Shown piece after piece: positions 3,682 to 33,496 of a DNA stretch of 64,000 bases. Made by a program: the position numbers and the translations under genes. Origin of the DNA: Candidatus Gastranaerophilales bacterium (GTDB lineage Bacteria > Cyanobacteriota > Vampirovibrionia > Gastranaerophilales > Gastranaerophilaceae); contig JAFQHZ010000006.1 in assembly GCA_017415185.1 (NCBI GenBank), forward strand, positions 1 through 64,000. Direction: 5' to 3'. The notes below the pieces were generated by a model, which saw only the letters and a program-made list of their open reading frames with translations, made no database searches and was not told where the DNA came from. Within the stretch, counting starts at the first letter, position 1; each line of letters starts with the position of its first letter.

Positions 3682-4221
3682 ATGAATGCTGTTGACCCAA
3701 TAAAAAGCCTTGACGATATTAGAAAAATGAAAGAATTTTTGGCGAAAAAGCCGAGGAACGCTTTGCTCTTCAGCTTTGGGATAAATAGCGGATTGAGGAT
3801 TTCTGATATACTTGCGCTTAATGTCGGGGATGTTAGGGGCAAAGAGTATATTGAAATTAGAGAACTGAAAACGGGAAAGCGAAAAATATTTCCGATTAAT
3901 GATAAGCTGAAGCAGGAGATTGAAGAATTTACTAAGGGAATGCCGGAGGAACAACCACTGTTTTATACACAGAAGAGGAGACGAATGGAAAGGAGTCGGG
4001 CGTATAAGATTTTAAACAAAGCTGCAAGAGCTGTGGGGATAACAAGACGAATCGGTACGCATACGCTGAGGAAAACATTTGGATACCATTGCTACCAAAA
4101 ATACGACGATGTCGTGCTGCTACAAAAGATTTTTAACCACTCTTCACCCCAAATCACCCTCCGCTACATCGACATCGAACAAGAAGATATAGATGCAGTG
4201 TATAGGGAGTTTTATTTGTAA
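3682..4221 (+). CDS. Tyrosine recombinase, catalytic domain only
   Basis: Site-specific recombinase of the phage-integrase family. The catalytic set is complete: R39 in SGLRISD, a lysine near K66 in LKTGK, H127 and R130 in HTLRK, H153 in NHSS, and nucleophile Y162 in LRYIDI. It is only 179 residues and lacks the N-terminal SAM-like core-binding domain of full integrases, similar in size to FimB/FimE-type or orphan recombinases. Its base composition is richer in GC than its flanks, like the Mu-like operon at 18.2-21.6 kb. It lies at the left edge of the island and convergent to the next gene. It may move the island, invert a segment, or be a remnant that needs a partner for DNA binding. Confidence 0.88.
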   Translation: MNAVDPIKSLDDIRKMKEFLAKKPRNALLFSFGINSGLRISDILALNVGDVRGKEYIEIRELKTGKRKIFPINDKLKQEIEEFTKGMPEEQPLFYTQKRRRMERSRAYKILNKAARAVGITRRIGTHTLRKTFGYHCYQKYDDVVLLQKIFNHSSPQITLRYIDIEQEDIDAVYREFYL

Positions 4222-4987: not shown

Positions 4988-7378
4988 ATGGATAAAAAAT
5001 CTTTATCAGAAAGAGATATTTGTACAAAGTTTATTACTCCTGCAATTGTTGAAGCTGGTTGGGATAGAAACACGCAAATTAGAGAAGAAGTCTCTTTTAC
5101 TGCTGGTAAAGTTATCGTAAGGGGCAAACTAGTTTCTCGTGGTAAACAAAAACGTGCTGACTATATTTTGTATTATAAGAATAATATTCCTATCGCTATT
5201 ATTGAGGCTAAAGACAATAAGCATTCAGTTGGAGCAGGTATTCAACAAGGGATTGATTATGCAGAAACATTAGACATTCCTTTTGTATTCTCATCAAATG
5301 GCGATGCTTTTTTATTTCATGATAAAACCATTGATTTGGGCAAGAAAGAAATCGAACTTCCTTTAAATAAGTTTCCAAGTCCTCATGAGTTGTGGAATAG
5401 ATACAAAAAATATAAACAAATAGAAGATGCCGAAGTTGAATCTATTTATACTCAAAATTATCATACTGATGCGAGTGGCAAAGAACCACGATATTATCAA
5501 AGAATTGCTATAAATAGAGCCGTTGAAGCTATTGCTAAAGGTCAAGATAGAACGTTACTTGTTATGGCAACGGGTACCGGTAAAACTTATACGGCATTCC
5601 AAATTATTTGGAGATTATGGAAGGCTCGCAAAAAGAAAAGAATTTTATTTTTAGCTGATAGAAATATTTTAATCGACCAAACAAAAGCTCAAGATTTCGC
5701 ACCTTTTGGCGATAAAATGACTAAAATTACAAAACGACAAATTGATAAATCTTATGAAATTTATCTTGCTTTATATCAAGGTTTAACTGGTAATGATGAA
5801 GATAAAGACGCATATAAACAATTTTCACCAGATTTTTTCGATTTAGTTGTAATTGATGAGTGTCATAGAGGTAGTGCTAAAGAAGATTCTGCTTGGCGTG
5901 AAGTCCTTGATTATTTTAGTTCAGCTTCTCATTTGGGTTTAACTGCAACACCAAAAGAGACAAAAGATGTTTCCAATATTGAATACTTTGGTGAACCAAT
6001 TTATACTTATTCGCTAAAACAAGGTATTGAAGATGGTTTTCTTGCACCATATAAAGTTATAAGACCTCTAATTAATATCGATTTAGATGGGTTAAAACTA
6101 CCACAAGGAACTATAGATAAATACGGAAATGAAGTTCCTAATAAAGAATTTAATACAAAAGATTTTGACAAGAAAATTGTAGTTGATGAGAGAACTGAAC
6201 TTGTTGCAAAGAGAATTACAGAATATTTAAAGAAAAATAATAGATTGGATAAGACTATTGTTTTCTGCGTAGATATTGATCATGCAAATAGAATGCGCCA
6301 AGCATTGGTAAATGAAAATGCTGATTTAGTTGCTCAAAACTCAAAATATGTAATGAAAATTACTGGTGATGATAATGAAGGCAAAATGGAATTAGATAAT
6401 TTTATAGATCCTGAATCAACTTATCCTGTAATTGCAACAACATCAAAACTAATGACAACTGGCGTTGATGCTAAAACATGTAAGCTAATTGTTCTTGATA
6501 GCAATATTAATTCAATGACAGAATTTAAACAAATCATTGGTCGTGGAACTCGTTTGAGACCAGATTTTGGCAAGTATTATTTCACGATTATGGATTTTAG
6601 AGGCGTGACTCGTTTATTTGAAGACAAGGAATTTGATGGAGAACCTGTTCAAATAAAAGAAGTAAAAGAAACTGAAGAAATGCCAGCTGATGAACAAACA
6701 AAAGAAGAAATTATCGATATAATTGATGAAATTTCAAAAGAAGAAACAGTTGTAGATATCCCACCAGATATTGATTTAACCGATATTGAAACTCCGACAA
6801 GAAAATTTTATGTAAATGGAGTTGAAGTTGTCCAAGTTGGTGAACGTGTTCAGTATTATGGTAAAGATGGAAAATTAATTACCGAAAGCCTTGTTGATTA
6901 TACGAAAAAGAATTTAAAAGAGCAGTTTGCGACAATGAACGATTTTATTAAAAAATGGTCTGAGGCTGACAAAAAATCTGCAATTATTGAAGAACTGGAA
7001 GAACAAGGTATTTTGTTTGAAGAGTTGAGGGAAGAAGTTAAACAGAAAACAGGCAAGGATTTAAGTATTTTTGATTTAATTTGCCATGTTGCTTTTGATA
7101 TGCCACCGCTTTCAAGAAAAGAAAGAGCAGAAAAGGTTAAGAAAAGAAATTATTTTGGTAAATATTCTGAAAAAGCTAGAGCTATTTTGAACGCTTTAAT
7201 TGATAAATTCGCAGATGAAGGAATTATGGAAATTGAAAATCGTAGTATTCTAAATTTTCAACCTTTTGATAAATTTGGTACACCAGTAGAAATTATTAAA
7301 GAATTTGGTGGTAAGGATAGATACGAAGAAGCAATCCGAGAACTTGAAAAAGAATTGTTTAGTGATGAGGTGGCATAG
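4988..7378 (+). CDS. hsdR: Type I restriction enzyme, R (motor/nuclease) subunit
   Basis: ATP-driven translocase and nuclease subunit of a type I restriction-modification complex; it cuts unmethylated foreign DNA far from the recognition site. The N-terminal nuclease core is visible (ADYILYY with D58, then IIEAKD with E73 and K75). The superfamily 2 helicase motifs follow: MATGTGKTYTA near residue 195, VVIDECHRG near 290, LGLTATP, and motif VI QIIGRGTRLRPDFGK. The C-terminal third matches the EcoEI-type HsdR C-domain. At 796 residues it has the length of the shorter EcoEI-like R subunits and appears intact. It is first in the operon hsdR, membrane protein, hsdM, hsdS, abi. Confidence 0.93.
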   Translation: MDKKSLSERDICTKFITPAIVEAGWDRNTQIREEVSFTAGKVIVRGKLVSRGKQKRADYILYYKNNIPIAIIEAKDNKHSVGAGIQQGIDYAETLDIPFVFSSNGDAFLFHDKTIDLGKKEIELPLNKFPSPHELWNRYKKYKQIEDAEVESIYTQNYHTDASGKEPRYYQRIAINRAVEAIAKGQDRTLLVMATGTGKTYTAFQIIWRLWKARKKKRILFLADRNILIDQTKAQDFAPFGDKMTKITKRQIDKSYEIYLALYQGLTGNDEDKDAYKQFSPDFFDLVVIDECHRGSAKEDSAWREVLDYFSSASHLGLTATPKETKDVSNIEYFGEPIYTYSLKQGIEDGFLAPYKVIRPLINIDLDGLKLPQGTIDKYGNEVPNKEFNTKDFDKKIVVDERTELVAKRITEYLKKNNRLDKTIVFCVDIDHANRMRQALVNENADLVAQNSKYVMKITGDDNEGKMELDNFIDPESTYPVIATTSKLMTTGVDAKTCKLIVLDSNINSMTEFKQIIGRGTRLRPDFGKYYFTIMDFRGVTRLFEDKEFDGEPVQIKEVKETEEMPADEQTKEEIIDIIDEISKEETVVDIPPDIDLTDIETPTRKFYVNGVEVVQVGERVQYYGKDGKLITESLVDYTKKNLKEQFATMNDFIKKWSEADKKSAIIEELEEQGILFEELREEVKQKTGKDLSIFDLICHVAFDMPPLSRKERAEKVKKRNYFGKYSEKARAILNALIDKFADEGIMEIENRSILNFQPFDKFGTPVEIIKEFGGKDRYEEAIRELEKELFSDEVA

Positions 7379-7972
7379 ATGTTAGTAGCAACTTGGATTA
7401 CTGCAATATCAACTTTATTAATGATGATAGCAACATGTTGTATGGCTTATTTTGCTTGGAAAGCATTAGATAGTTGGAAAAATCAACAAAAAAGACAAAA
7501 ATTAGTTAATTTGCTAGAAGGTCTAAATAAGTACATTCAAGAACTTCAACTTTATGAATTAGAATCAATCGTTTATTCGAAACAGTCTAAAAATAATCCA
7601 GAAAAAGATTTCTCTAATAAGGCATTTTTAAATAATGAAATTAAGCTGATTGATAATGAAATGACAGAAGAATTTGGCAGTTGCATTTTGCTTTTGAAAA
7701 ATTGGTTGGTAGACCATGAAGAGCATGAACAAATTTTGAATGAAATATGCGCCAAAATGCAAGTATATAGAATTTCAATTGATGACTATAATAAAGTAAA
7801 AAAGGAACTTGTTGCAGAAATGCATACAAATGCAAATATAATGTATGGAGGATTAGATCCTGAATTATCTAAAAATGTTAAAGAATTAAAAGCTGTAGCG
7901 GTAACTAATAGAGAAGAATTAATTAAACTGGTAAACAGATTTAAAGAATTAAATAAAAAATTATTAAAATAA
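7379..7972 (+). CDS. Membrane-anchored helical protein inside the type I restriction operon
   Basis: A 197-residue protein I cannot assign. Residues about 3-27 form one hydrophobic transmembrane helix followed by KNQQKRQK, predicting a cytoplasmic C-terminal body; this body is Leu/Lys/Glu-rich and probably a helical bundle. The ATG immediately follows the hsdR stop codon and uses the ribosome site GAGGTGG inside the end of hsdR, so the two are translationally coupled. Standard type I systems do not need such a protein. Likely ideas are a membrane sensor, an accessory effector like those inserted in other hsd operons, or an anchor for the complex; none is shown by the sequence. Confidence 0.75.
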   Translation: MLVATWITAISTLLMMIATCCMAYFAWKALDSWKNQQKRQKLVNLLEGLNKYIQELQLYELESIVYSKQSKNNPEKDFSNKAFLNNEIKLIDNEMTEEFGSCILLLKNWLVDHEEHEQILNEICAKMQVYRISIDDYNKVKKELVAEMHTNANIMYGGLDPELSKNVKELKAVAVTNREELIKLVNRFKELNKKLLK

Positions 7973-7985
7973 TCGGAGAATATAA

Positions 7986-9419
7986 ATGCCAAATATATCA
8001 AGTGTTATAAAAGCGATACAAGACATAATGAGAAAAGATACAGGTGTTGACGGAGATGCACAACGTCTTTCTCAAATTGTTTGGATGCTATTTTTGAAGA
8101 TTTTTGCTGATAAGGAAGAAGAAGCGGAAATAATGAATGATGATTACAAATCACCAATAGCAGAAAATTATCGTTGGCAAACTTGGGCAAAAGATGACGA
8201 AGGTATGACTGGTGATGAATTAATTGCTTTTATTAACAATGATTTATTTCCTTATTTGCAAACTCTCGAAAACCAAGCCGATAAAAGAGCTTTAATTATT
8301 CAAAACATCTTTCAAGACACTTATAACTATATGAAATCAGGTACTTTGCTTCGTCAGGTTATAAATAAAATTAACGAAATTGACTTTAATTCAAGCGAAG
8401 ATAGACACTTATTTAATGATATTTATGAGCAACTTTTACAAAGTTTACAATCAGCAGGTAATGCTGGTGAATATTACACACCTCGTGCTGTAACTCAATT
8501 TATTGTTGATATGATTAATCCACAACTTGGTGAAAAAGTTCTTGACCCAGCTTGTGGTACAGGTGGCTTTTTGGCTTGTTCCATTGAACACTTGAAAAAA
8601 CAAATCCAAAGAGCAGAAGATGCTGATTCTTTAAATAACAATATTTATGGCATAGAAAAGAAACCTCTTCCACATCAACTTTGCACAACTAATATGATTT
8701 TACACGGTATCGATACACCTATAAACATTAAACGTGATAATACTTTATCAAAACCGATAAACAATATTTCACCTGCTGATAGGGTTGATTGTATCATTAC
8801 TAACCCACCATTTGGTGGCATTGAAGAAGAAGGAATTGAAAATAATTTTCCTGCAAGTTTTAGAACTCGTGAAACGGCCGATTTATTCTTAATTTACATT
8901 ATGAAGATGTTAAAACCGAATGGAAGAGCAGGTGTTGTATTGCCGGATGGTTCGCTCTTTGGAGAAGGTGTAAAAACAAGAATCAAAGAAGAATTACTGC
9001 AGGAATGCAATTTACATACAATAATTCGTTTGCCAAACGGGGTATTTAATCCATACACAGGTATTAAAACGAATTTGTTATTTTTTACGAAGGGTACTTC
9101 AACAAAAGAAATTTGGTATTATGAACACCCTCTTCCGAAAGGAATAAAAAACTATTCTCGTTCAAACCCAATTACAATAGATGAATTTTTACCAGAAAAA
9201 CAATGGTGGAATAATAGAGTAGAAAATGAACATGCTTGGAAAGTTTCTGTTGAAACAATTATAGAAAGAAGCTACAACTTAGATATTATAAATCCTTACA
9301 TAAAAAATAATGAAATTATTTTATCACGAGATGAAATCATTTCAGAAATACAAAATAGTTTAAATCAATGTAATTCAATATTTAATAAAATAAAAGAGGT
9401 TTTAGCCGATGAAAGTTAA
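7986..9419 (+). CDS. hsdM: Type I restriction-modification, DNA methyltransferase subunit
   Basis: N6-adenine methyltransferase subunit that protects host sites and joins HsdS to form the core complex. The HsdM N-terminal helical domain (DAQRLSQIVWMLFLKIF) is followed by the S-adenosylmethionine-binding motif DPACGTGGFL near residue 185 and the catalytic NPPFGG near 275. Length (477) is typical. The start is ATG with CGGAG upstream, 13 nt after the preceding gene. The last 11 nt overlap hsdS, showing coupled translation. Confidence 0.95.
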   Translation: MPNISSVIKAIQDIMRKDTGVDGDAQRLSQIVWMLFLKIFADKEEEAEIMNDDYKSPIAENYRWQTWAKDDEGMTGDELIAFINNDLFPYLQTLENQADKRALIIQNIFQDTYNYMKSGTLLRQVINKINEIDFNSSEDRHLFNDIYEQLLQSLQSAGNAGEYYTPRAVTQFIVDMINPQLGEKVLDPACGTGGFLACSIEHLKKQIQRAEDADSLNNNIYGIEKKPLPHQLCTTNMILHGIDTPINIKRDNTLSKPINNISPADRVDCIITNPPFGGIEEEGIENNFPASFRTRETADLFLIYIMKMLKPNGRAGVVLPDGSLFGEGVKTRIKEELLQECNLHTIIRLPNGVFNPYTGIKTNLLFFTKGTSTKEIWYYEHPLPKGIKNYSRSNPITIDEFLPEKQWWNNRVENEHAWKVSVETIIERSYNLDIINPYIKNNEIILSRDEIISEIQNSLNQCNSIFNKIKEVLADES

Positions 9420-10677
9420 AATTTCTGATATTTTTGATTTTGAGAAAGGTGCCTTACAAAGTTCCAAATGTGTTATAGGGGAATATGATTTCATAACAGC
9501 TAGTTCTGATTGGAAAAAACACAATGTATATACACATGAATGTGAAGCATTAATTATAGCAGTTGCTGCTTCTGGTTCTTTAGGAAGAACTCATTATGTT
9601 AATGGTAAATTTATTGCAAGTGATTTGTGCTTTATTTTGCAACCAAAAGCAGAATTTAAAGAAAAAATTAATTTGAAATTTTATTATGAATACTTTAATT
9701 TTATAAAAGATGATTTGGTGTATAAAACTGCGACTGGTAGTGCTAAAAAAGCTATTAATAAATTAAATTTTGCACAATATGAAATAATTTTTCCAAATAA
9801 AGAATATCAAGATAAAATTATTCAAAAATTATGCGAATTTAAAAAATATTTTGGAATCTTGAATGAAAATTTTGAATACGATGCTAAATTAGTAGATAAA
9901 CTTCGTCAATCAATTTTGCAAGATGCCATTCAAGGTAAACTAGTTCCACAAAATCCAAACGATGAACCAGCATCAGAATTGCTTGAAAGAATAAGGGTGG
10001 AAAAGGAGCAACTAATCAAAGCTGGAAAGATAAAAAAAGAAAAATGCATAATTATAGATAATAAATATGAAATTGTTATTCCTAAGAATTGGTGTATGTG
10101 CGTTGTTCAAGATATCTCTTTAAAAGTTACAGATGGAGAACATTCAACTCCTCAAAGAGTAAATAGTGGTTATTTTTTATTGTCTGCACGAAATGTAACA
10201 AATCAAGGATTGAAATTAGATAACGTAGATTACGTAGATGAAAGCGAATTTAATAGAATAAGAAAACGATGTAATCCAAACAAAAATGATGTTCTAATGT
10301 CTTGTAGTGGTAGTGTTGGTAGAGTTTGTTTGGTGGATAAAGATAATTGTTATGTAATGGTAAGAAGTGTTGCAATGGTAAGACCTCATAAAAATATTTA
10401 TCCTAAATATTTAGTCTATGTACTAAAATCAGATTTTTTACAAAAACAAATTGAAAAATCTTCAAAAATAACGGCTCAAGCAAATTTATTTTTAGGTAAG
10501 ATTATTGAACTTCAAATACCATTGCCCCCTACAGAAGAACAAAAACGCATTGTTGCAAGAGTAGACGAATTAATGTTGCTATGCGATAAGCTTGAATTAG
10601 AGAATAATAATGCACAAAAATCTTCTTCAGATTTATTACAATCAATAATGCAAAAATATTTCACCCCGGAGGTTTAA
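9409..10677 (+). CDS. hsdS: Type I restriction-modification, DNA specificity subunit
   Basis: Specificity subunit that recognises the bipartite DNA target. It has the canonical two-repeat build: target-recognition domain 1 (about residues 1-150), central conserved helix region (VDKLRQSILQDAIQGKLV and following), target-recognition domain 2 (about 210-370), and the second conserved helix (PLPPTEEQKRIVARVDEL). Length (422) is normal and no frameshift is seen. The gene overlaps hsdM by 11 nt. No second hsdS fragment or inverted repeat pair was seen nearby, so specificity switching by inversion is not suggested, despite the integrase upstream. Confidence 0.93.
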   Translation: MKVKISDIFDFEKGALQSSKCVIGEYDFITASSDWKKHNVYTHECEALIIAVAASGSLGRTHYVNGKFIASDLCFILQPKAEFKEKINLKFYYEYFNFIKDDLVYKTATGSAKKAINKLNFAQYEIIFPNKEYQDKIIQKLCEFKKYFGILNENFEYDAKLVDKLRQSILQDAIQGKLVPQNPNDEPASELLERIRVEKEQLIKAGKIKKEKCIIIDNKYEIVIPKNWCMCVVQDISLKVTDGEHSTPQRVNSGYFLLSARNVTNQGLKLDNVDYVDESEFNRIRKRCNPNKNDVLMSCSGSVGRVCLVDKDNCYVMVRSVAMVRPHKNIYPKYLVYVLKSDFLQKQIEKSSKITAQANLFLGKIIELQIPLPPTEEQKRIVARVDELMLLCDKLELENNNAQKSSSDLLQSIMQKYFTPEV

Positions 10678-10680
10678 TTG

Positions 10681-11637
10681 ATGAGTGCATCTCCGTTTCA
10701 AAAAGCATACGAATTTGAAGAAAAATATGGGATTGATAGGTTAAAACTGTGTATTCAAAATGCCGAAATAGCATATAAAACTTTTGCACCTGAAACAATT
10801 GATTATTGTAAATGTATTATTGAATCGGTTGCTAAACAAATAATTGCTGATAACAATATTGAGTATGACAAAGAATGGACTCTTGCGCAGTTAACAAAAA
10901 AATCCATAGATTGTTTAAATTTTGAGAATCAACATATTAGAAAGGCACTTACAAATATTATTGAGACTTATTCAACAGTAAGAAATCAACAAGGAATTGC
11001 CGCCCACGGGCATATAGAAAATGGCACTATCCCGACAGAAACAGATGTTAGGATATTTGCTTCTGCATTTTTTCATTATATAGAAATTATTTCAGCACTA
11101 TTAGATAAATCAAAAATTAATACTAATTATACAAACATAAAATTTGAAAAAATCGATGAAGTCCCAGAATACAATTATGCAAATAAGTATATTGATAATA
11201 ATGTAAGGGTATCATATGAAGATGGTTCGATTTTTATAAATGGTCAAGAAATACGTCCAAGTAGTATTTTGTATAACTTTGACAGGTTAGCTTATGGTGA
11301 GATGAATAACGAATGTTTTGATAATTTAAACAAAAGCAGAGATTATTTGGAAGAATTAGTATTAGAATATTATCTAGAATCTTTTATTGATGAAAATCCT
11401 CTTCTCATCGAGGATTCATTATATATTTCTATTGATGAGAATATGACATTTAAAGATACTTTTATATATGCAAAAGGTACGTTAAACTGGGAAGAGGTTG
11501 AATATGATGAAAACTCAGATTTACCATTAAAAGCAAGCTGTACATCTTGGTTTGAAGTATGTTTTAGTTATGAATTTGATTCTAGTATTAATGAATTTTC
11601 ATACAATATTGAGTCTTTTGAATTTATAAATTATTAA
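10681..11637 (+). CDS. Abortive-infection protein, Abi_C-like HEPN fold
   Basis: The first 140 residues match the pattern of the Abi_C domain: EYDKEWTLAQLTKK, then a helix, then VRNQQGIAAHGH, the R/N...xAHG signature of HEPN-type RNase folds found in abortive-infection proteins. The remaining 170 residues form a separate acidic domain that I do not recognise. The ATG at 10681 is preferred over a TTG at 10678 because GGAGG at 10668-10672 is optimally spaced. The ribosome site lies inside the end of hsdS, so the gene is coupled to the restriction system and may act as a back-up that kills the cell if restriction fails. The RNase activity is inferred from family knowledge. Confidence 0.75.
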   Translation: MSASPFQKAYEFEEKYGIDRLKLCIQNAEIAYKTFAPETIDYCKCIIESVAKQIIADNNIEYDKEWTLAQLTKKSIDCLNFENQHIRKALTNIIETYSTVRNQQGIAAHGHIENGTIPTETDVRIFASAFFHYIEIISALLDKSKINTNYTNIKFEKIDEVPEYNYANKYIDNNVRVSYEDGSIFINGQEIRPSSILYNFDRLAYGEMNNECFDNLNKSRDYLEELVLEYYLESFIDENPLLIEDSLYISIDENMTFKDTFIYAKGTLNWEEVEYDENSDLPLKASCTSWFEVCFSYEFDSSINEFSYNIESFEFINY

Positions 11638-11658: not shown

Positions 11659-11982
11659 ATGAATATTTTAATTTTAGGAAATGGTTTTGATATTGCACAT
11701 GAATTACCAACAAAATACAATGATTTTTTGGAATATTGCATTAAAAAATATTCAATTGATAAAACTTCTAGATATATCGAAAAAGCAGAATCTTTTACAA
11801 ATAATTTGTGGTTAAGACATTTTATATCCATTCAACCAGAAGGTGACAAATGGATTGATTTAGAAAATGAAATATACAATGTAATTAAAAATCTCAATAA
11901 AAGCTTACAGAGTATAACAAACAATTACAAAACTACTGATTTCTATTATGAATATATATATATATTCAAAAAATCAAATTGA
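11659..11982 (+). CDS. AbiH-family protein, N-terminal fragment (frameshifted)
   Basis: The N-terminus MNILILGNGFDIAHELPT is the hallmark of AbiH-like phage abortive-infection proteins (GNGFD, usually followed by LPTxYxDF). The frame runs through a TA dinucleotide tract and stops shortly after it at 11980-11982, while the rest of AbiH continues in another frame from 11948. Adding one TA unit joins the frames exactly. The gene follows the Abi_C-like gene by 21 nt and probably belongs to the hsd-abi transcript. It may be a phase-variable gene caught in the OFF state, a true pseudogene, or carry a sequencing error at the tract. Confidence 0.75.
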   Translation: MNILILGNGFDIAHELPTKYNDFLEYCIKKYSIDKTSRYIEKAESFTNNLWLRHFISIQPEGDKWIDLENEIYNVIKNLNKSLQSITNNYKTTDFYYEYIYIFKKSN

Positions 11983-12775
11983 AAAAGATTATAATTTAAG
12001 AAATATAATTAGTAAATTTCAAAAGATTGAGATTTTAGGCGAATATGGTGAACTTCAAATTAAGCAATATATACATAATCCACAGGTCTATCGATTTACA
12101 AGTTACAAAGAATTAATTCAATTGTTATATGAACACCTTCGAGAGTTTACAAAAGAATTTGACAAATACTTATTAGATGAAATAACTCCGAAAATTGGGA
12201 ATAAAAATTTCAATTATTCTTTGTTAAAGAGCTCTTCCGTTAGAGTTTTAAATTTTAATTACACTAATACATATGAACAATTATATAGTCCGCATAGTAT
12301 ATATGCTGACTCAAATCCGAAATTTGCTTATATTCACGGAAAAACTTGTGCTTCAGAAGACTGTAACTTGGTTTTAGGTGCACACTCCTTTTTTAATAAA
12401 AAGCCAAATGTTTTAGATGAAGAAATAAATGTAGAATTTAATATTTTTAAAAAACATAATCAAAGACATAGGTACTCTACTATAGAGTCCTATCAAACAT
12501 TATTAAAAGAACTTGGTGATAAAAGAAAAATTATTGTACCAAATTTTCATATAATAGGACATTCTTTAGACAAAACAGACCATAGCATTTTAAAACATAT
12601 TTTACAGGTAAGAGAAAGGTCTGTAATTAATGTCTATTATCACAATCAGGATGCTCTTGAACGAATGATAAATAATATAACTGAAATAATCGGTGAAGAG
12701 GAAGTTATGTCTAAAGTTAGATTTATAGATCAACATGATCCTAAGCTAGGAATTTTAATTCCAATTAAAGATTGA
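11948..12775 (+). CDS. AbiH-family protein, C-terminal fragment (frameshifted)
   Basis: This frame holds the conserved remainder of AbiH: VLNFNYTNTYEQLY, YIHGK, LVLGAHS and the C-terminal IIGHSLDKTDHSIL motif. The nominal start MNIYIYS lies inside the TA tract and has no ribosome site, so it is unlikely to be a real start; the fragment makes sense only as the second part of the upstream ORF. Together the two parts give about 370 residues, the normal AbiH length. The catalytic-looking residues of the family are preserved, which points to recent interruption or phase variation over long decay. Confidence 0.75.
   Translation: MNIYIYSKNQIEKDYNLRNIISKFQKIEILGEYGELQIKQYIHNPQVYRFTSYKELIQLLYEHLREFTKEFDKYLLDEITPKIGNKNFNYSLLKSSSVRVLNFNYTNTYEQLYSPHSIYADSNPKFAYIHGKTCASEDCNLVLGAHSFFNKKPNVLDEEINVEFNIFKKHNQRHRYSTIESYQTLLKELGDKRKIIVPNFHIIGHSLDKTDHSILKHILQVRERSVINVYYHNQDALERMINNITEIIGEEEVMSKVRFIDQHDPKLGILIPIKD
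11951..11966 (+). repeat. TA dinucleotide tract inside abiH
   Basis: Seven uninterrupted AT units (11952-11965) at the exact point where the AbiH frame breaks. Eight or five units would give a continuous reading frame. Slippage at such a tract is a known route to phase variation. Confidence 0.8.
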
Positions 12776-12853: not shown

Positions 12854-14074
12854 ATGATTAACACAGCGCAAGAACATTTTATAGAAGAAAAACCACATAC
12901 AGAAATCAAACATAAGCTTTTTAAAGCTGCTCTTGATACTAGTATTGCGATTGCAAACGGAATAAATTATTCAAAAAAAGAAAATAAATCATATACATAT
13001 ATTGATTTATATGCCGGTGCTGGAAAATTTAATGATGAGCATAAGGGTTCACCTTTATTAGCAATAAATTCCTTTGAAAAATATAGTGATACAACTAAAC
13101 GGTCTTTTGCTAATATCCAAATGGTTGTAGCAGAAAAAGATGCGAAAAATATTGAATGTTTAACCCAAAATATAAATGAAGAAAAACAAAATTTATCTTT
13201 AAATGATTTATCCTGTACTTTCTGTAATGGGTCTTGGGAAACTCATTCAGAAATGTTAAAAAAACATATCAAATCAAGTCAATGGGGATTCGTTTTTGTC
13301 GATCCTTTCTCTTTAGAATTAGATTTCAATAAATTAATAGAATTAATTAATGAAAGTCCTTATTACAAAGATATTTTAATACTTATAAACAAATCTGCGC
13401 AAGAGAGAATTCTTGGGAAAATCGATGAACCAGATATTAACAAATTATGCGATTATTTTAATATAACTGAGTCCAACTTAAAAAGAATGTTTGATTTTGT
13501 AAAATCAAAAGGAGGGTCTAATGAAACTGTAATTCAACATTTGATAAAAAGGTCTATTAGTAAGTTAGATAAAGATTATGTAATAAATGTAGCAATTACA
13601 AGAACAAGGAATGGAAAGCTCGAAGATTCTAACAGGTTTTATTTATGTTTAATTACAAGTGCTATTGGTGTCGCAAATAGTTTTCTCGAAAAATACGCCG
13701 AAGAACTTGAAGATAAAACATTGAAAAATAATAATATGCAGTTAAGCTTATTAAATACTTCCCCGATAACAAGATATGTTTCATTGGAGGAGCAAGTAAT
13801 AAAAATTTTAACTAAAGAGGATTTAACATTGTTTAAACTTTCTCAAAAAATGTATAATGTATTCCATTCTTGGAAAGATTCTGACGGAAATGCAATACCT
13901 CATAGACAGGCTCTTTTAACAGCAATAAATAATTTATTAAATAATAGGAAAATAAAATTAATTACTCCTGAAAAAGCAAGACTTGGTTGTATAAGCAATA
14001 AAACCAACAAACTACTATCTCAATCGCTTAATACAAAAGAAGATGCAAAAAGCATTAAAATAGGTCTTATATAG
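12854..14074 (+). CDS. tcmP: Three-Cys-motif partner protein TcmP
   Basis: The sequence near the N-terminus ([16 protein letters not shown], then [11 protein letters not shown] and GSPLLAI) and the later [10 protein letters not shown] fit the TcmP family, a conserved partner of proteins with a three-Cys motif. YIDLYAGAG and VFVDPF resemble motifs I and IV of a Rossmann-like methyltransferase. The C-terminal 120 residues look like a winged-helix DNA-binding tail. The partner gene is present, convergent and overlapping at the 3' ends by 8 nt. TcmP function is not established; the pair often travels on mobile or defence-rich DNA. Its message is probably leaderless. Confidence 0.82.
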
Positions 14075-14774
14075 GTAGTTCTTTCCACTCACGTCCCTGA
14101 AGTGTGCAGCCTGCTATTTTCTTGCTTACGCCACCCCATTGTTTGAAAAAGAATGGAATTTTATTTTCTAAGCAGTTATCTCTTATAGATGTTACCCAAT
14201 TTTCTTTTATTGGTCTTGCTCCTGGGCCACTTTCACCACCTACAATCACCCAATTAATATTATCTAATGAAAGATCTTTAATTTCTGTTAACATCGGTTC
14301 AATTGATAAATATTTGATATGTGCAGGTGTATTAATTAAATAAGGAATTCGTCGTTTTTGTTTATCAGATTCAACTGTCACACCTAGCCAAATATTTTTT
14401 GTCCATTTTAACTTAGGGGCAATTTGTTCTAATCTTTCTGCACGTTTTGTTAGAACCTGAAATGTATGCCATTTAGCCTTATTCATTACTTCAAAAACTT
14501 TTATAATAAATTCATCCGGAACGTCTTTATGAAATAAATCACTCATTGAACAAACAAATATAATTTGAGGTTTTTTCCAAGATAAAGGCTCTTTTAGACA
14601 ATCTTCATGGGTAGTTACTTGAAAACAGTTTCTATATTTTTCTTGCCCCATCGCATGTAATCTTCTTGCCATGCGTTCCGCATAGCAATTTTGGCATCCT
14701 TCACTGATCTTAGTGCAACCAGTAACAGGATTCCAAGTTGATTCTGTCCATTCAATCTTCGACTTTGTTGCCAT
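14067..14774 (-). CDS. Three-Cys-motif protein, phage Gp37/Gp68 (DUF5131) family
   Basis: DUF5131 proteins are uncharacterised and first noted in mycobacteriophages. The N-terminal motif [16 protein letters not shown], then [14 protein letters not shown], contains cysteines spaced C-x6-C-x2-C, resembling but not identical to the iron-sulfur cluster motif of radical SAM enzymes. [26 protein letters not shown] and [13 protein letters not shown], all conserved in the family, are present. Length 235 is typical. The ATG at 14774 (MATKSKIEW) is preferred to an upstream TTG, because family members start at this position. The TcmP partner is encoded tail-to-tail. A radical-type or metal-dependent reaction is an inference. 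Confidence 0.87.
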
Positions 14775-14830
14775 AATATAATATTGTAATTCTTGCAAAG
14801 AAAAATATAACCTCTGTTTATATGATTATA

Positions 14831-18233: not shown

Positions 18234-18641
18234 TTATTCCATTCCCAAGAACTCTTTTTCAATTTGTTTGATGAAGTCTTCGGAGAGTTGGCCGGTGGGT
18301 TTAGGAGTTTGAGTTTGTTCTTTGAGTTCGATTTTTACCAAGTCTGGCAAGTATTTTAGCAGGTTTGTCAGAGTATAAAACTCTGACTGGTTCACAGGCT
18401 TTTTGTTTTGCATATCCGTTGTGATTTTTGCCATTAGTTTTTCTACAAACCCTTGCAACTCTTTTGAAAAAGCCTCCTTTTTCGCAAACTTCGCGGCTTT
18501 TTTCTTATCCCACTCGTACTTTTCTCTCCAATAAAAAAGTGTGCGACGAGAGACATTCAAATTTTTACAAATTTTGTCGACTGACAAATTATCTTGCAAA
18601 AACAGCGTTTCTGCGTGTTTATAATATTTCATTTTACTCAT
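18234..18641 (-). CDS. HTH protein of the Mu-like operon (DUF1804/terminase-small-subunit-like)
   Basis: A 135-residue protein whose N-terminus (MKYYKHAETLFLQDNLSVDKICKNLNVSRRTLFYWREKYEWD) contains a helix-turn-helix of the kind in DUF1804 proteins and phage small terminase subunits. The C-terminal half is a helical, charged tail. The start at 18641 (ATG AGT AAA) is chosen because GAGGA lies 6 nt upstream; the stop codon of the previous gene overlaps this region. It is the last gene of the operon transposase, MuB-like, core-binding protein, HTH. It could be a regulator or the sequence-specific DNA-binding partner. Confidence 0.7.
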   Translation of the reverse strand: MSKMKYYKHAETLFLQDNLSVDKICKNLNVSRRTLFYWREKYEWDKKKAAKFAKKEAFSKELQGFVEKLMAKITTDMQNKKPVNQSEFYTLTNLLKYLPDLVKIELKEQTQTPKPTGQLSEDFIKQIEKEFLGME

Positions 18642-18642
18642 T

Positions 18643-19197
18643 TTAATCCTCAAAAATTATTCTATTCATACTAAATTCGTTCTTTTCATTAAGCCTCTTA
18701 ACCTGAAAACTACAGCATTTTGAGACCAAGCCTTGTGACTTACAATATTTCAAAAGTTGGTTAAGTTGCGTCAAAGTATTCTTCAGTCGTCGATGTCCCA
18801 AATTACGTGTTTTGCAACTTGCATAAAAGGTTTTAATGTCGTCGATTGTAATTTCTTGAACTGTTTTGCCCCTAAAAAATGACAAGATATTTATCCTAAA
18901 AATCGATTCATAAGTTTCGTAAGTCCTTTTTGTGCAAGCAGTTTTGGCATATTTTTCTAAAAAGAATTTTACGGCAGTTTCAAAGTTTAAAGGCACATCC
19001 CCCATAGCTTCAGTTGAAAATATCGCATAGTCAATTGTTTCTACTTTTTCAACGTATTTGTAGCAACCTTGATCAAACGCTATTTTACCCTCGTTCAAGA
19101 GGCGTTCAAGCTCCGTTTCAACGTCGGTTTCGGCTATCATTTCGATTTCGTCGAGTGTAAACTCCCGCAATCGTTTCGCTAATTTTTCTATGTTCAT
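18643..19197 (-). CDS. Winged-helix plus integrase core-binding domain protein, no catalytic domain
   Basis: Residues about 10-48 (FTLDEIEMIAETDVETEL and following) look like a small winged helix. Residues about 75-160 match the SAM-like N-terminal core-binding domain of tyrosine recombinases (FLEKYAKTACTKRTYETYES, then LKNTLTQLNQLLKYCKSQG). It ends at 184 residues with none of the catalytic R/H/R/H/Y residues. Its start overlaps the stop of the MuB-like gene (ATGA). The function is unknown: perhaps a DNA-binding accessory for transposition. It is curious that the recombinase at 3682 has the opposite content, catalytic domain only. Confidence 0.65.
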   Translation of the reverse strand: MNIEKLAKRLREFTLDEIEMIAETDVETELERLLNEGKIAFDQGCYKYVEKVETIDYAIFSTEAMGDVPLNFETAVKFFLEKYAKTACTKRTYETYESIFRINILSFFRGKTVQEITIDDIKTFYASCKTRNLGHRRLKNTLTQLNQLLKYCKSQGLVSKCCSFQVKRLNEKNEFSMNRIIFED

Positions 19198-19874
19198 AAT
19201 AAACCTCTAATCGTTTCTAGCGTATATTCGGTTATGCCGTTGTCTTTTGCGTAGATTTCAAGTTGGTTAATAAGTTGGACGATTTGCCTAAAGCGATTGT
19301 ATTTTAGGTGAATATACTCAATACTTTCAGTCGTAAACGGAATTTCTGAAAGGCTATCGAAAATTTGCGTTAAATCAGCCACCCCGAATGTTTCAAACTT
19401 CACGATTTCAGAAAACCTATCGTATAAATGTTTGTAGCGTTCGAGCTTTTTATGCACCAAGCTCATCCCCACAAACACAATCGGACATTCGGTCTTGTCG
19501 TGAATATCCCTAAGCGTTTCAATCGTCTTAAAATCGTTCATCAGATAGTCGATTTCGTCAATAATAATCAACTGTGGCTTGGCTTTGAGCTTTTTAACAA
19601 TGATATTAAAATTATTTGAGCTCAAGTAGCTTGGAATTTCGTCCATTTCTTTGACCAATTCCTCTAAAAGCCAACGGACGGACATCAAATTCGCAGCCCT
19701 TAAATAAATTGCATCATATTTGCAAGCAAGCCAAAGTGCCGTCTGCGATTTGCCTAGCCCAGGCTCGCCATAAACTAGTGCCATTTTGGGAATGTTCTTG
19801 GGTTTGTTTTGTAAATTTTCAATAAGTCCGATAAAATTTCGCACATTTTGCGTTTTAACAAAAGTTTTATTCAT
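19194..19874 (-). CDS. MuB/TnsC-like AAA+ transposition ATPase
   Basis: ATP-dependent target-DNA-binding protein that activates a DDE transposase and selects target sites. Walker A is MALVYGEPGLGKSQTA near residue 32-47, Walker B is QLIIIDEIDYL, and a sensor-like VFVGMS follows. The ATG at 19874 lies within the transposase stop region (ATGAATAA overlap of 8 nt), a typical arrangement for A-B gene coupling; a longer in-frame ORF upstream lacks a better start. At 226 residues it is shorter than phage MuB (312), like the compact MuB/IstB-type partners of mini-Mu transposons. Confidence 0.85.
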   Translation of the reverse strand: MNKTFVKTQNVRNFIGLIENLQNKPKNIPKMALVYGEPGLGKSQTALWLACKYDAIYLRAANLMSVRWLLEELVKEMDEIPSYLSSNNFNIIVKKLKAKPQLIIIDEIDYLMNDFKTIETLRDIHDKTECPIVFVGMSLVHKKLERYKHLYDRFSEIVKFETFGVADLTQIFDSLSEIPFTTESIEYIHLKYNRFRQIVQLINQLEIYAKDNGITEYTLETIRGLL

Positions 19875-21441
19875 ATAGCAATCGATACTCCTTTGTCTTT
19901 TTAAATTCTGTAATCCAAGCATCATCGGGGTTGTGCTTAATTAGGTATTCATATTTTTCACTATTATTTTTGAACATTCCTTGAACGATAGTTGAACACT
20001 CTTTGAACTCGGTTTGAACAATTGGCTGTTCAATTTTATGTTCAATTAATTTGATTTCTTCCTGTGGTAGATAGGCTTTGAGGCTGTTTATTGTCTTTCT
20101 TTTTAGCCGTTTTTGTTTTTGGATTTTCTGCTTAAAATCTTCCAAATCTTCGACAGTCCCTAAAATTTTTGCCATCGGATGAGTTTCTGTTACACGTTCT
20201 GCCGTGCATAAAAACTCGCCTTTTAGGGTGTAGACTTTGATATGCGTCAGGTCAAAAAGGTTGTATTTTATAAGCACTTTGCTTTTGAACCCATAAAGTC
20301 GTTCGTCAAAATAATCGCAGTTTAAAAAGCGAATGCCGTTTCGCTGAATGGTTTTGACCTCTGTCGCAAGCATCAAATCATCAAGCTGATTTATGTCGAT
20401 ATTTTGCCTTTTTCTAGCCTCAAGAACCTCGGCGACTGTCATATTTGGTGCATTTGTGCAGGGTTGAGAGTTTTTGAAATTCAGCCACATATCAATCATT
20501 TTTATCGCCTCGTCAATTGTTGGAATATAATCGGAGTGCCAATTCTTGTGCAACTTTTCATTCCTTAAAAGATATGCAGGCTTATTGTCAATGGACGAGC
20601 CGACATAGCTTGATAGAAGTTTCTCAAAGCCTTCTTGAAACTCTTTGAAAAATCGTTCAATGACTTTTGCTCGTGCGTTGTAGGGTTTTGCAAAAACAGT
20701 TTCAATACCTAGTTTTGCATATAGACCATAAAACCCTAATTCGCCGAAGCCTTTGTCGTCAGTGAAATACTTTGCTCTGAACGCCCTGCCGTTATCCTGA
20801 TAGACGATTTTCGGTATCATATCGAGGTTTATAATTGCGTTTCGCAGGGCTGATGCGATGCATTGCACGTTTTCTTCATGCATAATTTCGTAGCCGACAA
20901 GTGCTGTTGATTTCCAATCTAAGAACCCGACAAGCGTTGCTCTGCTTGGTTTGCCTGTAAATGGATTTATCACCTGAAACGCTAGTTTATGTCCGTCTGC
21001 GACCAAAATATCGCCTACATCAAGCAGGCTTGCATCACGTTTTATGTATGGTTCAACCTTGTCAGACAAAGCCTTTTCGCTATCTCGGGCGAGCACCCAT
21101 TTATCGTAATTGTTGTTTTTGAACCACATTGCGTAACGGCGAAACGTGATATCTGCAGGGATAAAGCTTTGTCCTTGCTCACGCAGTTTGTATTTAGTAA
21201 GCGCTGTCGCTTTGCCAATAGAAATTCGGTTTGGGTGCAAAAGCAAGCCCATAAATATTTTGATTTCTTCGTCAGTAAGGCAAGTGCGATAGTCGTTAAC
21301 GCTAGCGTATTTATACTGTGGTAGTAGCTTTTGATAATCGTCAGTTCCACCAAGCATGGCGTGCCAGCGATGTAATGAGCCACGAGAAATCTTGCCTATA
21401 ACTTGGAATAGATGCGAGTTTGACGTGTTGTGTAAATTCAC
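19867..21441 (-). CDS. Mu-like DDE transposase (main open part; 5' end cut off by a stop codon)
   Basis: Transposase of the Mu A family. The catalytic triad is visible: D149 in LVADGHKLAF, D216 in VYQDNGRAF and E262 in KVIERFFKEF, followed by the Mu-type C-terminal beta-barrel domain and a charged tail that would contact MuB. The first Met of this open frame has no ribosome site. The same frame continues upstream through 21582, interrupted by a single TAA at 21529-21531, and the true start is probably there. Translation from 21441 would lack part of the N-terminal DNA-binding region. GC content is higher than in neighbouring genes, suggesting separate origin. Confidence 0.85.
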   Translation of the reverse strand: MNLHNTSNSHLFQVIGKISRGSLHRWHAMLGGTDDYQKLLPQYKYASVNDYRTCLTDEEIKIFMGLLLHPNRISIGKATALTKYKLREQGQSFIPADITFRRYAMWFKNNNYDKWVLARDSEKALSDKVEPYIKRDASLLDVGDILVADGHKLAFQVINPFTGKPSRATLVGFLDWKSTALVGYEIMHEENVQCIASALRNAIINLDMIPKIVYQDNGRAFRAKYFTDDKGFGELGFYGLYAKLGIETVFAKPYNARAKVIERFFKEFQEGFEKLLSSYVGSSIDNKPAYLLRNEKLHKNWHSDYIPTIDEAIKMIDMWLNFKNSQPCTNAPNMTVAEVLEARKRQNIDINQLDDLMLATEVKTIQRNGIRFLNCDYFDERLYGFKSKVLIKYNLFDLTHIKVYTLKGEFLCTAERVTETHPMAKILGTVEDLEDFKQKIQKQKRLKRKTINSLKAYLPQEEIKLIEHKIEQPIVQTEFKECSTIVQGMFKNNSEKYEYLIKHNPDDAWITEFKKTKEYRLLYE

Positions 21442-33416: not shown

Positions 33417-33496
33417 TATAAATAACCCAAATTAATTAAAACGCCTTGTAATATATATATATATATTAACATTTTTTCGTAAATAAAGGAGAATTT

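Follow-up and report, generated by a model that had tools for sequence, protein, structure and literature searches.

A probably slipped AT tract in a putatively SIR2-like AbiH gene that closes a type I restriction-modification operon: a candidate OFF allele, reversible in principle

Slippage is familiar from restriction-modification genes and surface genes. AbiH is an abortive-infection family whose Lactococcus lactis member was reportedly described by Prevots et al. (1996). AbiH has been predicted to be a Sir2-superfamily enzyme, and such enzymes have been linked to type I restriction-modification (Makarova et al., 2012; PMC3506569); a 2025 survey gives its mechanism as unknown (PMC12322248). 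The hifA/hifB repeat of Haemophilus is (TA)9-11 (PMC2651432). In the open-access literature we found no abortive-infection effector that is switched by slippage.

Here we describe an AbiH gene, broken at an AT repeat, from a gut bacterium of the Gastranaerophilales type. The reading we favor, and hold with moderate confidence, is that a tract specific to this lineage slipped and left a recent OFF allele, reversible in principle, of a SIR2-like AbiH that stands last in a type I restriction-modification operon.

The split AbiH gene, its operon and its predicted function

In the window (the whole stretch of DNA analysed, 64,000 nt), the two parts of the gene match one Pfam family, PF14253, end to end, and each exceeds the family's gathering cut-off of 30.9. 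The N-terminal half (11659-11982, forward strand, frame 1; 107 aa) carries the GNGFD motif and matches profile positions 1-78 (E = 1.5e-15, 58.4 bits; PADLOC AbiH, 8.9e-14). The C-terminal half (11948-12775, forward strand, frame 2; 275 aa) carries the motifs NFNYT, HG, FKK..QR and GHSL..D and matches positions 89-254 (E = 5.1e-18, 66.5 bits). AbiH is thus not a single open frame in the source genome. The overlap of the two reading frames spans an exact (AT)7 tract (11952-11965, forward strand), flanked by GA and TC. To get from the N to the C frame, a shift of +2 or -1 (mod 3) is needed, so that five or eight AT units are in frame and seven are out. Once out of frame, the N half closes at a TGA (11980-11982), and a search of the C frame from the tract to 12775 for a second stop or frameshift found none. 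The preliminary description had likewise placed the two AbiH parts in different frames meeting at a seven-unit AT repeat, and both the open reading frames and the PF14253 matches bear this out. Its further statement, that one extra unit gives a single open frame with the conserved motifs, also agrees with our results: with eight units the gene is in frame, and 39 of the 40 columns that are invariant in 14 relatives are kept, the exception being L12, which is replaced by I.

AbiH is the last gene of a type I restriction-modification operon on the forward strand. It is preceded, in order, by hsdR, the restriction subunit (4988-7378; PF04851 and PF08463, PADLOC REase_I), a small protein of 197 aa with a hydrophobic N-terminus and no family (7379-7972), the methyltransferase gene hsdM (7986-9419; PF02384, 2.5e-78), the specificity subunit gene hsdS (9409-10677; PF01420, 1.4e-27) and a gene for a 319-aa protein (10678-11637). 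The last of these is a putative accessory abortive-infection gene, with weak matches to PADLOC AbiJ (1.2e-3) and Abi_C (0.034). The order hsdS, 319-aa gene, AbiH is kept at locus L105, and hsd genes also lie near AbiH at L023, L025, L028 and L035.

Several other features were seen around this operon. Downstream of AbiH (12854-14798), genes for TcmP (three-Cys-motif partner) and DUF5131 stand side by side on opposite strands, a PADLOC candidate defence pair (PDC-M30). A tyrosine integrase gene lies just upstream of the operon (3682-4221); this neighbor raised the idea of hsdS inversion, which we rejected, as hsdS takes part in no strong inverted repeats. At 18234-21441 stand transposition genes of Mu-like type (MuA- and MuB-like). 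The transposase has a relative 3-6 kb away from AbiH at L025, L026, L029 and L030, so that a Mu-like element may carry the defence island along or move next to it.

For the function of the intact protein we turned to an AlphaFold model of the L023 relative. The top 22 PDB matches of this model in Foldseek were all chains of SIR2-HerA entries (probability 1.00, E from 2e-4), a match at the level of fold only, with a TM of only about 0.38 and a model pLDDT of 75. At the level of sequence, no match of AbiH to any solved structure was found. By analogy, the conserved N of NFNYT and H of HG could be the counterparts of residues N133 and H171 of DSR2 (PMC11290490). Together, the fold matches and these motifs suggest an NAD+-consuming enzyme; intact AbiH would then be an NAD+-depleting, SIR2-like effector.

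The AT tract and the state of the gene

The abiH (AT)7 tract is far beyond chance for the window, which has a G+C content of 32%. When Markov models (orders 1-4) are fitted to the window, they give an expectation of 0.001-0.01 alternating A/T runs of at least 14 nt per 64 kb, and about 1e-4 or fewer in a gene of the length of AbiH. The window holds two such runs, the abiH tract and an intergenic (AT)8 at 33451-33466. The source genome holds 33 runs of (AT)7 or longer, of which only two lie in clear coding sequence, namely in abiH and at the N-terminus of a 597-aa ORF. (AT)7 is wholly absent from 13 of the 17 other genomes of the genus that were scanned.

Full-length, single-frame AbiH is found in many Gastranaerophilales-type genomes and in some others. 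When the DNA is aligned, the closest relatives, L023 and L024 (61-62% identity overall), are both exactly 4 nt shorter at the tract, which places the source lineage two units above the in-frame spacing of these relatives. The tract site is where AbiH relatives differ in length, and in the segment opposite it in the L023 model (residues 91-114), residues 91-98, 103-109 and 112-114 have pLDDT values below 50. None of the 46 intact relatives examined carries a dinucleotide run of more than four units, and the tract is not kept among them; the (AT)7 tract is therefore specific to the source lineage. In collections that hold one genome per species, and from which near-identical records may be left out, a pattern tolerant of tract length had no matches in viral contigs, and plasmids likewise gave none. 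The stretches of the source genome that we examined were those around AT tracts and AbiH genes.

In the mechanism that we propose, the AT tract, situated in the weakly conserved linker that joins the GNGFD segment to the NFNYT/HG part, would have slipped to seven units. At this length the gene is out of frame, and ribosomes would stop 17 nt past the tract, yielding a 107-aa fragment that lacks the likely catalytic half; AbiH would accordingly be OFF in the assembled genome. Since the break falls exactly on a slippage-prone tract and the gene is otherwise undamaged, AbiH could regain its frame by the same route. We infer that slippage caused the break, and that slippage back to an in-frame length, at a low rate, would restore AbiH.

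Apart from its frame, the gene shows no sign of decay. Amino-acid identity to outgroups is nearly equal for the source AbiH and for the intact L023 and L024, which, with the kept residues, indicates either that the break is recent or that the gene is still under selection. The source AbiH has nine lineage-unique changes, as compared to five and five in its two nearest relatives; a slight relaxation is possible on these counts, and the sequence comparison points to an evolution that is not clearly accelerated. The preliminary description had named, as what would speak against phase variation, reads and relatives all fixed at seven units with additional inactivating mutations; in the source AbiH no such further mutation was found.

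These observations have to be weighed against the possibility of a plain recent pseudogene, in which a single slippage or indel broke an AbiH that was perhaps costly, and in which the gene is now decaying and the tract was never a switch. AbiH is present above the cut-off in 57 of the 383 genomes of the family, and in at least five others of the roughly 60 family genomes that hold it, it is damaged without any repeat: by a frameshift in G095, by the loss of some 60 nt and a change of frame in a second copy in G027, by truncations in G347 and G356, and by an internal deletion in G248. Such ordinary damage indicates that AbiH loss is common and keeps the pseudogene reading alive, as does the restriction of the tract to one lineage. 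However, there is no second lesion, the conserved residues are kept, and the break sits exactly on the one long repeat of the gene, the sole repeat-sited break seen among damaged AbiH genes of the family. We regard simple decay as possible, though rather doubtful. That the tract has been kept as a phase-variation switch is an equally tentative proposal. As in phase-variable genes, tract length sets the reading frame and the tract is beyond chance; the intact relatives have no such tract at the same place. The earlier designation of the locus as a likely phase-variable defence thus holds for the slippage-prone break in an otherwise sound gene; an operating switch is possible rather than likely, with the tract absent from the relatives and AbiH lost by other routes as well.

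Two further explanations would leave AbiH intact or expressed. That the tract was misassembled or misread, and that the true gene is whole, seems quite improbable: some platforms are known to do poorly on dinucleotide tracts and the assembly is in 43 contigs, but the adjoining long genes are unbroken, and contig breaks near pilin-gene repeats a few hundred bases long suggest short reads, which would be good over 14 bp. Still less probable, to the point of being hardly credible, is that expression bridges the frame, through transcriptional slippage on an A6 run or +1 ribosomal frameshifting, or that the two halves are made separately. Just 3' of the tract there is indeed an A6 run (11968-11973, forward strand), a possible, weak transcriptional slippage site, and an ATG at 11948 opens the C frame. 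Against this, all relatives are single-frame, the run is short, its site is not conserved, and no Shine-Dalgarno-like sequence precedes 11948. A conserved programmed frameshift is ruled out by the relatives, which are in one frame.

If mixtures of tract length exist, the locus would be a slippage-controlled abortive-infection effector, a defence that is costly to misfire and that is carried by part of the population. As a plain pseudogene, the locus would be a further example of frequent defence-gene loss.

AT runs near pilin-like genes

Most other long AT runs of the source genome belong to a repeated intergenic promoter-like element, TTGWA-(AT)7-9-TAGAAT, found at loci L054-L084 and in the window at 33451-33466. 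Of roughly 30 copies, 25 precede a type IV pilin-like gene (FTLAE motif) by at most 400 nt, and the pilin-like protein of L072 matches N_methyl. Run lengths are seven units in two copies, eight in 20 and nine in three. GCTCCTxxAAAGGAGTAT and a start codon often come after the element; in pilin 5' leaders (e.g., L072:118-147) CTCCT stands opposite AGGAG across a short loop, so that a hairpin could mask the ribosome-binding site. A consensus scan of the window copy (33451-33466) gave no sigma-70 match with the repeat as spacer. For a large share of the AT elements, a contig end is at most 400 nt away (e.g., L055, L060, L074, L083 and L084); the assembly is probably interrupted there by pilin 5' regions that are nearly identical. 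Within the genus, the motif was found only in the source genome and in G001 (7-8 units). We considered whether the abiH tract is a copy of this element and rejected the idea, as the flanks differ. The pilin element is an observation separate from abiH, and one that may matter more.

The other coding run, an (AT)8 at codons 5-10, lies in frame in the 597-aa, unassigned and membrane-like ORF (L081:1988-3778), for which no homologue was found in the other 27 genomes of the genus. From its sequence, this ORF is a second candidate for coding-region slippage. One could envisage an AT-dinucleotide phasome of at least 25 pilin-like genes, abiH and the 597-aa ORF, in which slippage would vary pili and phage defence together. 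We think this unlikely; if true, surface pili and phage defence would be co-varied in an uncultured gut clade.

Comparison with known systems

The gene resembles the AbiH family in that both halves match PF14253, relatives are full-length and other defence genes lie nearby, but it is in two frames, and we know it from its sequence. It may resemble the SIR2-type NADase effectors (SIR2-HerA/Nezha and DSR2) in the fold matches of the L023 model and in the N and H motifs; it differs from them in a TM of only about 0.38 and in the lack of a sequence-level match, AbiH being known here from sequence and model. The linkage of Sir2 or AbiH to type I restriction-modification (Makarova et al., 2012) is the same here, with hsdRMS, the abi gene and AbiH in a row. 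This arrangement is not new, and the repeat and the frame break are the only additions. Like hifA/hifB and phase-variable restriction-modification genes, the locus has a repeat, here a dinucleotide tract, on whose length expression would depend. However, the hifA/hifB repeat acts via promoter spacing, whereas the abiH tract is intragenic and shorter, at seven units as compared to (TA)9-11. It is the (AT)n element of the pilin genes that resembles the promoter repeat of Haemophilus.
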